From positions 2,699,380 through 2,763,379 of the forward strand of contig CP166133.1 in the NCBI GenBank assembly GCA_041228285.1: a stretch of DNA of 64,000 nt, given 5' to 3'. Positions 37,909-41,011 of this stretch are shown here, one piece after another. The stretch's first letter is position 1. Every line of letters starts with the position of its first letter. This stretch comes from Neisseriaceae bacterium CLB008 (GTDB lineage Bacteria; Pseudomonadota; Gammaproteobacteria; Burkholderiales; Neisseriaceae). Below the pieces are notes generated by a model. It ran no database searches and was not told the DNA's origin. It worked only from the letters and a program-made list of their open reading frames with translations. The position numbers were made by a program, and so were the translations under genes.

Positions 37909-38234
37909 ATACATCTCCTCTTTATCGAGGCCCGAGCCCTATCGGTTTGGCCTGGACACTCTTTTGGCTGTGACATTCACAATACCCCAAACAGATGACA
38001 AAAAATAGGCTAACACAGCCGTTTCAGCCTGATCTCCCCCTAAAGGCCATCGCCTCAACCCATATAAGCTAGCCAAACGACACCTCTAATGTTTGCTTTT
38101 ACCACAGTTTCAACACTATTGCCGTAGGCCAGCTTCAATGCTATATTTGCCCACATATCGGGCCGGTTTTATGGCTGACGCTGAGCTTTTTTGGCTCACC
38201 CTCGCTAAGGTCCAACAATGTAAAGGGGAGTGCT
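37909..38234. other. 326-bp divergent gap between HD and DUF3870 genes
   Basis: No gene is seen. It carries a likely sigma-70 promoter for the DUF3870 unit at 38119-38147 and presumably a minus-strand promoter for the HD/DUF488 pair. Confidence 0.6.
38119..38147 (+). promoter_or_regulatory. Putative sigma-70 promoter of the DUF3870 unit
   Basis: TTGCCG (38119-38124), a 17-bp spacer and TATATT (38142-38147), about 88 bp before the ATG. Confidence 0.55.
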
Positions 38235-38561
38235 ATGCCCTACGGTGAAGACACCATTTATGTGGTGGGCGATGCTAAATCGCCACAAAACAACCCCATA
38301 ACCGAAAAGTTTAAGGCCTATTTTTTGGCCTTGGTCATTGACCAAACAACCCATCTGATCGTTGACGTGGAATGTTCCACCACCTTGACGCTGACCAATC
38401 GATTCATTCGTGAATTCTTCATTGGCCAGCACATCCAAAACAACGACATCAGTAACCAAATTACCCAACGCTATTTAGGCTCATCACAAAAAGCCTTGAT
38501 TGTGGCATTTAAAGACGCACAGAAAAAATATGCCCAACACCTTCAACGTGATGCCCAATAG
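38235..38561 (+). CDS. DUF3870-domain protein
   Basis: A 108-residue soluble protein matching DUF3870 by its core (YFLALVIDQTTHLIVDVECSTTLTLTNRFI, in part, and QRYLGSSQKALIVAFKDAQKKY). Function is unknown. It has conserved C and S/T positions but no recognisable catalytic motif. GGGGAG precedes its ATG. It is the first gene of a plus-strand unit with a DUF819 membrane protein and a dipeptide epimerase. Confidence 0.78.
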   Translation: MPYGEDTIYVVGDAKSPQNNPITEKFKAYFLALVIDQTTHLIVDVECSTTLTLTNRFIREFFIGQHIQNNDISNQITQRYLGSSQKALIVAFKDAQKKYAQHLQRDAQ

Positions 38562-38708
38562 CTGATTTAAGCTGCTTTATTTAATTACCTAAATAAAATC
38601 CAGCCAATCGCACCGCTTGCTTAACCGCAGGCGTGCGCTTGGCTGGATTTTTTTTGGCCATACCAACGCTACCGAATAAGTAGCGAACCCACACACCAGG
38701 AGAAACAC

Positions 38709-39866
38709 ATGATAGAACAAGGCTTTATGTATTTAAGCGTGCTGATTGCTTGGGCTGCCGCGATGGCCGCCTTTCAGCAATACACCCACGCCCGCAAGCT
38801 GCTGACTTTTTTACCCGCCGTGGTGCTGATTTACATCGGCGCTTCCATGATGAATACCTTTGGCGTGTTTGCGCCATCAGAATCGATCAGCACAACCTAT
38901 TCATCCGTGCGCAGCGCCCTCTTACCGGCCATGCTGGCGCTGATGCTGCTAAAATGCAATCTGCGCGAAATCATCCACCTCGGCCCCCGCATGTTGGTCG
39001 CCTATGCCTGTGCTGTATTCAGCATTTTGGTGGGCTTTGTAGTGGTTTATGTGGGCCTGAAACACTTCTACATTGACGGCACCTGGCGCGCATTTGGCGC
39101 CCTCGCCGGCAGCTGGACCGGCGGCTCGGCCAATATGGTGGCCTTACAAAGCATCTTAGACGTACCCGAAACCATTTTCGGCTACATTCTGATGATGGAC
39201 ACCATCAATTACGCCGTCTGGGTGATGTTCATGTTCTGGCTGGTGCCGTTTGCTGGGCGCTTCAACAAATGGACCAAGGCGCCAGAGCAGCTGTCGAGCG
39301 AAGCCATGAACATGAAGACCGAAACCGCAGAAGCGCCGATCACGTTTCAGAATATTTTGTATCTTTTAGGCATTGGCCTGTTGATTTCGGCCGTATGTAC
39401 CTGGGCTGGGCAAAACCTGCCCAACGTGGGCGACGTGATTAACGGCACCACTTGGACCATTATGCTGGCTTCCTTAATCGGCCTAGGCTTGGCGATGACG
39501 CCGCTGTCTAAAATGTCCGGCTCCATGGAATTATCCAACGTCATGCTCTACATCATCATCGCCTTAATCGCTTCGCGCTCAGACTTCAGCAATCTAGCCC
39601 AAGCCCCGATTTACCTCGTGTCTGGCTTCTTGATTTTGTTCATTCACCTGGTGGTGATGGTGCTGTTGGGCAAACTCTTTCGCTACGATTTATTTACCCT
39701 CGGCGTGGCCAGCCTCGCCAATATTGGCGGCATGGCTTCGGCCCCGATGCTGGCCGCCAGCTACCACAAATCGCTGATTCCCATTGGCGTGTTGATGGCG
39801 CTGATGGGCTCTTTTGCCGGCACCTATTTCGGCATGCTGGTGGGCAAAATTTTGTCCTTACTGTAA
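38709..39866 (+). CDS. DUF819-family membrane protein
   Basis: A 385-residue protein with about 10-11 membrane helices. The signature GSWTGGSANMVALQ lies near residue 139, and a mirrored ASLANIGGMASAPMLAASYHKSLIP near the C-terminus; together they suggest two inverted halves, as in many secondary carriers. The family is uncharacterised but transporter-like. AGGAG precedes the ATG. Thirty-three bases before the epimerase gene, so a role in uptake of the epimerase substrate (a dipeptide) is plausible but unproven. Confidence 0.85.
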   Translation: MIEQGFMYLSVLIAWAAAMAAFQQYTHARKLLTFLPAVVLIYIGASMMNTFGVFAPSESISTTYSSVRSALLPAMLALMLLKCNLREIIHLGPRMLVAYACAVFSILVGFVVVYVGLKHFYIDGTWRAFGALAGSWTGGSANMVALQSILDVPETIFGYILMMDTINYAVWVMFMFWLVPFAGRFNKWTKAPEQLSSEAMNMKTETAEAPITFQNILYLLGIGLLISAVCTWAGQNLPNVGDVINGTTWTIMLASLIGLGLAMTPLSKMSGSMELSNVMLYIIIALIASRSDFSNLAQAPIYLVSGFLILFIHLVVMVLLGKLFRYDLFTLGVASLANIGGMASAPMLAASYHKSLIPIGVLMALMGSFAGTYFGMLVGKILSLL

Positions 39867-39899
39867 TCGAACTTGATGAAACCATGAGAAAGCACGCAC

Positions 39900-40958
39900 A
39901 TGATCATTACCCAACTACGGGTGGCGCACACGCCGCTACAGCTGCACACCCCTTTTAAAACGGCGCTGCGCACCGCCCACGAAATTGACAGCATCGATGT
40001 GTATCTAGACACCGATGCAGGCCTAGTCGGCCGCGGCGCCACCGCCCCCACTTTAGTCATCACCGGTGATTCTAAAGAAGGCATCATCGGCGCCCTTTTA
40101 GGCCCAATTCAGGCCGCTCTCGTCGGCCAAGACGCACGCCAGCTCAATGTTTTACTTCTGGCCATACAGCGTGCCTGCATCGGTAATACCAGCGCCAAAG
40201 CCGCCGCCGACATCGCCCTACATGATCTATTTGCCAAGTGGCTGGATCAACCGCTTTACGCCGTTCTCGGCGGCCACAAAGCGCTGACCACCAATATGAC
40301 CATTGGCCTAGACACGCCAGAAGTCATGCAGGTAGCCGCCCAAAAAGCCGTGGCCGACGGTTTTGACACTTTAAAAATCAAGGTCGGTAACGACCCCAGC
40401 CTCGACATCGAGCGCATGCAGGCCATCGCCGCCGCCGTACCCAGCACCACCCGCTTTCGCCTCGACGCCAATCAGGGCTGGACAGCTAAAGATGCCGTCA
40501 ACGTGATTCGCCAATTAGAAGCGCTAGGCTTCAACATCGATTGGGTAGAGCAACCAGTATTGGCGCGCGACTTTGCTGGGATGAAATACGTCACCGACAA
40601 AGTCGCCACCAAAATCATGGCCGATGAGAGCGTGTTTTCGCCGCAAGACGCCTTCACCCTCATCAGCGAGCGCTGCGTCGACCTCCTCAACATCAAGCTG
40701 CTCAAATGTGGTGGCATCGGCCCCGCCCGCCAAATCGCCGACTTAGCCGCCGTTCACCATATGCCGTGCATGATCGGCAGCATGATGGAGTCATCCGTCT
40801 CGGTGAGCGCCGCAGCCCACTTTGCTGCCAGCCATCCCAACGTTTTATACTGTGACTTTGATGCGCCGCTGTGGCTGACCGAAGCCCCACAAGGGCTCAG
40901 CTACCAAGGCCAGCAAGTATTTTTAAACCAGCGCCCCGGCCTTGGTCTTGAGGCCTAA
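39900..40958 (+). CDS. Dipeptide epimerase (enolase superfamily, AE-epimerase-like)
   Basis: A 352-residue enzyme of the muconate lactonising subgroup. The catalytic lysines sit in TLKIKVG (K159, K161) and NIKLLKCGG (K266); metal ligands are D189 (DANQGW), E217 (EQPV) and D242 (ADES). This is the pattern of L-Ala-D/L-Glu epimerases and related dipeptide epimerases, which invert the second residue of dipeptides, often during murein peptide recycling. Which dipeptide is used cannot be told from sequence. A terminator follows. Confidence 0.9.
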   Translation: MIITQLRVAHTPLQLHTPFKTALRTAHEIDSIDVYLDTDAGLVGRGATAPTLVITGDSKEGIIGALLGPIQAALVGQDARQLNVLLLAIQRACIGNTSAKAAADIALHDLFAKWLDQPLYAVLGGHKALTTNMTIGLDTPEVMQVAAQKAVADGFDTLKIKVGNDPSLDIERMQAIAAAVPSTTRFRLDANQGWTAKDAVNVIRQLEALGFNIDWVEQPVLARDFAGMKYVTDKVATKIMADESVFSPQDAFTLISERCVDLLNIKLLKCGGIGPARQIADLAAVHHMPCMIGSMMESSVSVSAAAHFAASHPNVLYCDFDAPLWLTEAPQGLSYQGQQVFLNQRPGLGLEA

Positions 40959-40978: not shown

Positions 40979-41011
40979 AGCCGTTAGCCCATCAGGGTTA
41001 GCGGCTTTTTC
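40979..41011 (+). terminator. Terminator after the epimerase gene
   Basis: A 12-bp stem with two wobble pairs (40979-40990 with 40995-41006), ATCA loop, followed by TTTT. Confidence 0.8.

Follow-up and report, generated by a model that had tools for sequence, protein, structure and literature searches.

In a 64,000-nucleotide stretch of the genome of Neisseriaceae bacterium CLB008 (GenBank assembly GCA_041228285.1, contig CP166133.1, positions 2,699,380 to 2,763,379; the whole stretch is called the window below), we found an attenuator, consisting of an intrinsic terminator and a covarying antiterminator, between a gene for a DUF3870 protein and a gene for a DUF819 protein, the latter being followed by an epimerase gene. 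This attenuator is the main new finding of the analysis. We consider it fairly probable that a dipeptide carrier, DUF819, and the epimerase are controlled by this attenuator, with DUF3870 as the antitermination regulator. The three genes lie side by side on the plus strand, as described in an earlier reading of the letters alone (hereafter the sequence-only reading), and their open reading frames and Pfam domains were confirmed. The DUF3870 gene (38235..38561, 108 amino acids) is the first and encodes PF12986 (E=1.5e-32; 112.1 bits against a gathering cut-off of 22), the DUF819 gene (38709..39866, 385 amino acids) encodes PF05684 (E=1.3e-109; 367.2 bits against a gathering cut-off of 27), and the gene for an L-Ala-D/L-Glu epimerase-like enzyme (39900..40958, 352 amino acids) encodes the MR_MLE N and C domains. 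The same reading had placed all three genes in one operon. They are indeed co-directional and linked, with a gap of 33 bp between DUF819 and the epimerase, but DUF3870 is set off from DUF819 by 147 bp that hold the strong terminator and the antiterminator.

The RNA spanning 38562-38660 folds far better than its shuffles (z=-6.81). The terminator (38595..38655, plus strand, -38.1 kcal/mol) is formed by the arms AAAATCCAGCCAA and TTGGCTGGATTTT, and the upstream GCTGCTTTATTTA can pair with TAAATAAAATCCAGC, which includes the 5' arm of the terminator. The antiterminator hairpin (38571..38604, plus strand) reads GCTG C TTTATTTA attacc TAAATAAA ATC CAGC; its 3' arm is the 5' arm of the terminator, and the two structures are predicted to be mutually exclusive through this common AYCCAGY arm. 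Owing to its long loop part, the window's own terminator escaped a crude scan for terminators; it was found by side-by-side reading and folding. The same hairpin pair recurs in related loci with altered sequences; from their alignment (A4), four near-identical rows were omitted. Across 54 distinct rows, 92.7% of 648 antiterminator cells are paired, compared with 81.2% in shuffled and at most 49.2% in slid alignments, double changes occupy 104 cells compared with 31.9 ± 5.9 when shuffled, and the covariation score is 0.489 versus 0.259. Terminators were identified for 61 of 63 elements, and in each of the 61 the terminator was the more stable hairpin (median -27.7 versus -11.9 kcal/mol for the antiterminator), and the default would therefore be off. 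In eight loci of this kind, here called type a, the element reached the gathering score of no Rfam family, and in the window between 36500 and 42000 the only Rfam match was RF03000 on the minus strand, at 25.5 bits against a cut-off of 46.4.

Related loci were sampled as the best 80 of 313 stretches encoding a DUF819 relative, obtained from one scan of a genome collection with a DUF819 alignment. Their DUF819 proteins range from 43 to 97% identity and come from Neisseriaceae, Wohlfahrtiimonas, Bacilli and Actinomycetes; neighbouring genes were called by tblastn. The co-occurrence of the three families, whose absence the sequence-only reading had named as its refutation, was present: DUF3870 lies directly upstream of DUF819 in 73 of the 80 loci (of the other seven, L066 is truncated at a contig end), the epimerase lies directly downstream in 65 (elsewhere in the locus in 4, none in 11), and both adjoin DUF819 in 64, although these are the query's closest relatives and the loci are related, so that the counts are not independent, which lessens their weight for our reading. 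In 53 of the 80, DUF819 is followed within 2.5 kb by a YkfC-like NlpC/P60 gene, and in 57 such a gene occurs anywhere in the locus. By group, DUF3870, the epimerase and YkfC were found in 3, 4 and 0 of the four beta/gamma loci, in 56, 51 and 43 of the 56 Bacilli loci, and in 14, 10 and 10 of the 20 Actinomycetes loci.

A model of the type-a antiterminator, R1, was built from 59 training rows, the window included, and searched in 96 + 16 sources that included all 80 loci. The pattern scan for the training set read the stretch upstream of DUF819 regardless of DUF3870 and omitted L119, L123, L126 and L129; its match in L049 was dropped as spurious. R1 matched 66 of the 73 loci with DUF3870 and none of the six intact loci without it (Fisher p=6e-6 over 79 intact loci, without regard to kinship). 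Of these 66 loci 58 were in the training set and eight were not (L053, L063, L065, L093, L100, L119, L125 and L127). In this count the weak match in L053 (E=0.068) was taken as a match and that in L090 (E=1.6) as a miss, and L044, which lies outside the 80 (E=0.18), was left uncounted. Seven loci with the element have no adjacent epimerase, and one of the six intact loci without DUF3870 has an epimerase in the locus and still no element. These results suggest that the RNA tracks DUF3870 and not the epimerase. Whole-genome searches with R1, and with the model R2 described below, scored at most 150 first-look candidates per genome, so that weak copies may be missed. Within this scope, the site in the window (38569-38606, 48.2 bits) is the only strong R1 match of its own genome (E=7e-8, the next being 1.2; 150 of 1366 candidates scored), and across 36 genomes of the class a site was found in this genome only. 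Among the 28 genomes of the related loci, 18 have an R1 site at E<=0.5, two of them weak (G811, 0.14; G812, 0.46); a second weak site in G801 (0.063), away from DUF3870, was read as chance.

DUF3870 is present in 24 of these 28 genomes, in 41 copies. We assembled a set of 22 paralogue loci, comprising 17 of 18 extra copies, a copy found in G580, a different genome of the phylum, and four of six plasmid matches; a G818 copy with an internal stop and the other two plasmid matches were left out. In a DUF3870 tree of 44 rows, several of them long, type a (with two Fusobacteriota rows) is split with full support from types b, c and d. The paralogues adjoin genes for CsiD (PF08943, checked on one member), an LhgO-looking flavin adenine dinucleotide oxidoreductase, coenzyme A (CoA)-transferase III with acyl-CoA dehydrogenase, aldehyde dehydrogenases, a luciferase-like monooxygenase, or, by plasmid annotation, thiolase and CoA-transferase, contexts which, by eye and from general knowledge, we take to be glutarate/lysine-type and beta-ketoadipate-type catabolism. 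A type-b descriptor, demanding a lower stem NCTG/CAGY, an upper stem and a terminator that begins at the same CAG, gave 11 matches in 10 of the 22 loci and one in 1.29 Mb of first-order shuffled sequence. The matches precede csiD (8 loci), a CoA-transferase/acyl-CoA dehydrogenase operon, a GntR-LhgO-DUF3870 operon and a monooxygenase gene. A model of these elements, R2, gave 13 matches at E<1e-3 in the 28 genomes, none of them more than 8.4 kb from a DUF3870 gene; 11 are training sites, and the two new ones precede a CoA-transferase/acyl-CoA dehydrogenase operon and an aldehyde dehydrogenase gene. By eye only, the CoA-transferase-dehydrogenase-DUF3870 operons of L195 and L200, and likewise L188, carry the element, and in Fusobacterium (L207) GCTGCTT...AGTCCCAGC and a terminator lie upstream of an epimerase-DUF819-hydrolase-DUF3870 operon. 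Elements of both types have a lower stem NCUG/CAGY, an internal loop ending in A-N-C and an overlap with the 5' arm of the terminator. R1 finds no type-b element (its best match in the 22 loci, L191 613-662 on the minus strand, E=0.047, is not the type-b site), and R2 matches a single type-a site weakly (E=0.0027); a relation between the two types is suggested by the common architecture, the descriptor scan and this one cross-match.

Terminator/antiterminator leaders were noted in the Bacilli loci L191, L192, L193, L196-L199, L201, L189, L227 and L228, before csiD, CoA-transferase/acyl-CoA dehydrogenase and aldehyde dehydrogenase operons; nine paralogue loci, seven of these leader loci among them, gave no Rfam match over the gathering score at the element. 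In a Cetobacterium plasmid (L206, 5989-7713), DUF3870 is followed by a hairpin, a terminator and a diaminopimelate-decarboxylase-like gene, with murI and a permease gene divergent; the hairpin, read by eye, is unlike R1. In Priestia and Peribacillus plasmids (L208 and L209), a type-c DUF3870 gene lies in thiolase/CoA-transferase clusters, directly after a muconate-cycloisomerase-family gene.

The window's DUF819 falls in a 13-row clade with support 100/100, whose other rows are one Neisseriaceae relative, Wohlfahrtiimonas and otherwise Bacillota, and among the best 80 of 313 its nearest relatives outside Neisseriaceae are those of Wohlfahrtiimonas (75%) and Aneurinibacillus (71%). Any DUF819 was found in only six of 61 genomes searched (its own and relatives), and a match to the window's DUF819 in 18 of 370 genomes of the same class, its own included. 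The cassette at 38235-40958 thus looks horizontally acquired, and the tree suggests that the type-a cassette, together with its RNA, reached Neisseriaceae from Bacillota.

The third protein is an enzyme of the enolase superfamily, and the solved structure closest to it is the Bacillus subtilis L-Ala-D/L-Glu epimerase 1jpm (E=3.4e-88). The third protein's residues R24, K159, K161, D189, E217, D242, K266, D319 and D321 align with the same residues of 1jpm, whose roles in catalysis and specificity in that enzyme (BsAEE) we presume; at the level of aligned positions, the full set of dipeptide epimerase residues claimed from the sequence is borne out. The YkfC-type domain set of the neighbouring NlpC/P60 genes, PF00877 (NLPC_P60) with PF23795 (YKFC-specific SH3), was confirmed on two members. 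The available text of PMC2954226 describes a predicted signal peptide and secretion for B. cereus YkfC, with the dipeptide likely imported, and calls the B. subtilis permease unidentified.

For DUF819, an AlphaFold2 model (predicted local distance difference test score 86.7) aligned with the AspT aspartate:alanine exchanger (Z 27.3, root-mean-square deviation 3.6, 350 aligned) and the CitS citrate symporter (Z 22.7, deviation 4.7, 367 aligned), and the protein is predicted from this model to have an elevator-carrier fold with two reentrant halves. Its two glycine motifs begin at residues 134 and 337 and sit on two helix breaks of the model, H125-138/H140-149 and H328-339/H341-352. The suggestion that these motifs mark inverted transporter halves was correct, and it was already known: the accessible part of PMC8396727 lists DUF819 as a CPA/AT clan member that has reentrant helices and inverted repeats. 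In L031-L033, from three genomes of another genus, there is no DUF3870, and the DUF819 and epimerase genes overlap by 4 bp. The genome that contains the window has a second DUF819, which is ~26% identical to the window's and adjoins a PF01427 D-Ala-D-Ala dipeptidase gene (L002, C1:2130194-2134363); the DUF819s paired with such M15 genes in L002 and L005 are 23-26% identical to the window's, and neither DUF3870 nor an R1 element was found in those loci. This second subtype stands directly after the M15 gene in L002 and also in L008, L005 and L049, and the open reading frame upstream of the M15 gene in L002, which has no Pfam match, looks by eye like a sugar-isomerase-type regulator. In Brevibacterium, the epimerase-less locus L116 has genes for an S66 LD-carboxypeptidase, an M19 dipeptidase and a beta-lactamase-like protein nearby (Pfam), and in the epimerase-less L128 and L130 the nearby proteins fall into the clusters of these neighbours or resemble them, judged without a Pfam scan. 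The claim that DUF819 imports the dipeptide used by the epimerase is well supported by the synteny with epimerase and YkfC and the AspT/CitS-like modelled fold, and further by the 4-bp overlap and the paralogue beside the D-Ala-D-Ala dipeptidase. DUF819s beside wall-peptide genes would thus carry peptidoglycan dipeptides, the window's subtype carrying L-Ala-gamma-D-Glu; we infer both this substrate and the direction of transport.

In the mechanism that we propose, DUF819 would act as an elevator-type secondary carrier that imports the dipeptide, and the epimerase would convert it to L-Ala-L-Glu, cleavable by ordinary peptidases; where a YkfC-type NlpC/P60 enzyme adjoins, the dipeptide would be made outside the cell. 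Transcription would begin upstream of DUF3870, and past this gene the RNA would by default form the strong terminator, leaving DUF819 and the epimerase off. An alternative hairpin that takes up the 5' arm of the terminator would prevent termination, and DUF3870, made from the same transcript, would bind and stabilise this antiterminator on sensing the dipeptide or one of its products, for instance Glu. We infer that DUF3870 binds RNA, as well as its ligand and the sign of the regulation. DUF3870 had been proposed as an accessory protein of the transporter. The conserved attenuator, an element that tracks DUF3870 and not the epimerase, and paralogues adjoining operons that lack DUF819 and bear attenuators of the same architecture speak against this proposal; a regulator fits better, and DUF3870 is a candidate antitermination protein of a new family rather than a transport accessory. 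As the simplest account, this role is suggested for both types a and b, because DUF3870 is the common partner across pathways, the RNA seems to follow it when the gene order changes, and the type-a cassette kept both in the move that the tree suggests. We see about an even chance that the generalisation holds, namely that the DUF3870 proteins make up a new family of antitermination proteins that bind RNA, in which each paralogue has its own antiterminator and senses a five-carbon acid or a derivative, type a serving the uptake of L-Ala-D-Glu or peptidoglycan dipeptides and type b glutarate and lysine catabolism, and that the type-a cassette of protein, RNA, transporter and enzyme moves between phyla.

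Several results weigh against these proposals. Seven of the 73 DUF3870 loci give no R1 match, although six Actinomycetes loci among them have degenerate forms by eye, and within the Actinomycetes alone (n=20) the contrast is 8 of 14 versus 0 of 6 (Fisher p=0.04, without regard to kinship). The pairs with any double change show no excess (8 versus 7.0 shuffled, a value reached by 153 of 500), and two Streptomyces loci lack a U-run terminator although they have the hairpin. The descriptor matched nine of 13 type-b loci and not the other four, the covariation of the type-b elements is partly built in by a descriptor that demands pairing, and R2 misses the by-eye sites in L188, L195 and L200. No element was found with the type-c DUF3870s (plasmids L208 and L209; L194, L202, L203 and L205), which lie in or near thiolase/CoA-transferase and other genes; this argues against one function for the whole DUF3870 family. 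No RNA-binding fold was recognised in the protein itself: Foldseek found no similar structure at E<=0.001, other structure matches were at noise level (VIA, best Z ~8; parts of IscU, aldehyde oxidase and lipoate-ligase), and Pfam at E up to 1 gave DUF3870 only, with no BglG/LicT or PyrR domain. The C-terminal domain of BVU_4064 (3kog) is called DUF3870 in the part of PMC4387736 available to us; it was not used as a DUF3870 structure, since searching with a profile built from 62 DUF3870s recovered neither 3kog nor 3g3l, even at E up to 10. On the side of the pathway, the epimerase scores under the NCBIfam equivalog cut-offs (NF041118, 219.5 versus 500 bits; NF011708, 103.8 versus 343), no YkfC gene is adjacent in the window and the genome's two NlpC/P60 genes lie elsewhere, and in 15 loci (L034-L048) there is no epimerase or M15 gene near DUF819 in the stretch read; the DUF819 family as a whole is therefore broader. 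A literature search that covered the beginnings of abstracts and some passages, with subscription journals mostly outside its coverage, found nothing linking DUF3870 to RNA or DUF819 to dipeptides.

The unclear fold of DUF3870 and the type-c genes without an element would also suit an RNA element that is a small riboswitch or the site of another protein, with DUF3870 having a metabolic or accessory role and simply accompanying the pathway, and the type-b elements are larger, ~60 nt with more sequence in the loop. Yet the nearly invariant part of type a is ~10 nt within a ~34-nt hairpin, small for a metabolite aptamer, the gene common to the dipeptide and glutarate-like contexts is DUF3870, and the intact DUF819 loci without DUF3870 lack the element even where an epimerase is present, so we regard this explanation as unlikely. 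That the terminator is far more stable than the antiterminator in all 61 cases would be expected of a constitutive partial terminator that sets the DUF3870:DUF819 ratio with no regulation, but a plain terminator has no need of an upstream arm that, as here, covaries with its partner strand and retains an invariant internal-loop motif, and this explanation is quite improbable. Translation-coupled attenuation, in which the ribosome ending DUF3870 chooses between the hairpins, draws on several Bacilli (L054, L056 and L058, for example) whose DUF3870 stop codon lies within the antiterminator; in the window and other loci, however, the stop codon precedes the element, and in Fusobacterium DUF3870 lies, by eye, downstream of it, which makes this coupling very improbable. 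As to the carrier, the solute is not readable from the fold, and the pairing of a DUF819 paralogue with a D-Ala-D-Ala dipeptidase indicates that substrates may vary within the family. DUF819 could then carry another solute, such as an amino acid or a longer stem peptide, or transport outwards; we think this rather doubtful, as the genes found directly downstream in 65 of 80 loci (epimerase) and within 2.5 kb in 53 of 80 (YkfC) encode enzymes that act on or make L-Ala-gamma-D-Glu.

Two further features frame the locus in the window. A terminator-like hairpin with a 12-bp stem followed by TTTTTC (40979..41006, plus strand) may mark the operon end before aceK; 12 sites of this kind occur in the window versus 8.2 expected. 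A possible operon promoter (38119..38147, plus strand; TTGCCG-17-TATATT, with an extended -10) is a consensus match, of which the window has seven versus 5.1 by chance.

Taken together, the analysis offers testable functions for two domains of unknown function. DUF3870 emerges as a candidate regulator of an RNA element in Neisseriaceae, Bacilli and Actinomycetes for which no Rfam family matched in the loci searched, and a related element stands at glutarate-type catabolic operons. If this is true, the small number of known classes of antitermination protein gains a new one, which could find use as a portable sensor for glutarate or for the turnover of the wall. In the pyrR-pyrP attenuation of B. 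subtilis, a small protein encoded by the first gene is followed by a terminator/antiterminator and then by a permease and an enzyme. The order of genes and RNA is alike here; the first protein differs, being DUF3870 only by Pfam, and the element has no Rfam match. The antiterminators of BglG, SacT and LicT, with the RAT hairpin, are short hairpins with an asymmetric internal loop that overlap the 5' arm of the terminator, and these proteins form paralogous pairs for different substrates. Both the RNA architecture and the pairing of paralogues resemble what we found, whereas DUF3870 has no BglG-type Pfam domain and the RNA motif is YUGCYU ... AYCCAG. AspT and CitS have a fold like that of DUF819 but only ~11-12% identity to it, and the AspT chain has 543 residues against 385. 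The clan and repeats of DUF819 were already known from the accessible part of PMC8396727; the new content is the attenuator and its likely regulator. The M15-DUF819 pair, which the available text of PMC12671195 reports in 75 of 128 N. meningitidis genomes, is like the second DUF819 of the present genome, whereas the window's subtype differs. Finally, the B. subtilis ykfABCD and dppBCDE and the B. cereus ykfBC genes for murein peptide catabolism (PMC2954226, as far as available) are alike in combining an Ala-Glu epimerase with a YkfC gene, as do 53 of the 80 related loci; here a single secondary carrier, DUF819, replaces the Dpp/Opp ATP-binding cassette transporter, the window has no adjacent YkfC, and an attenuator with DUF3870 stands in front.

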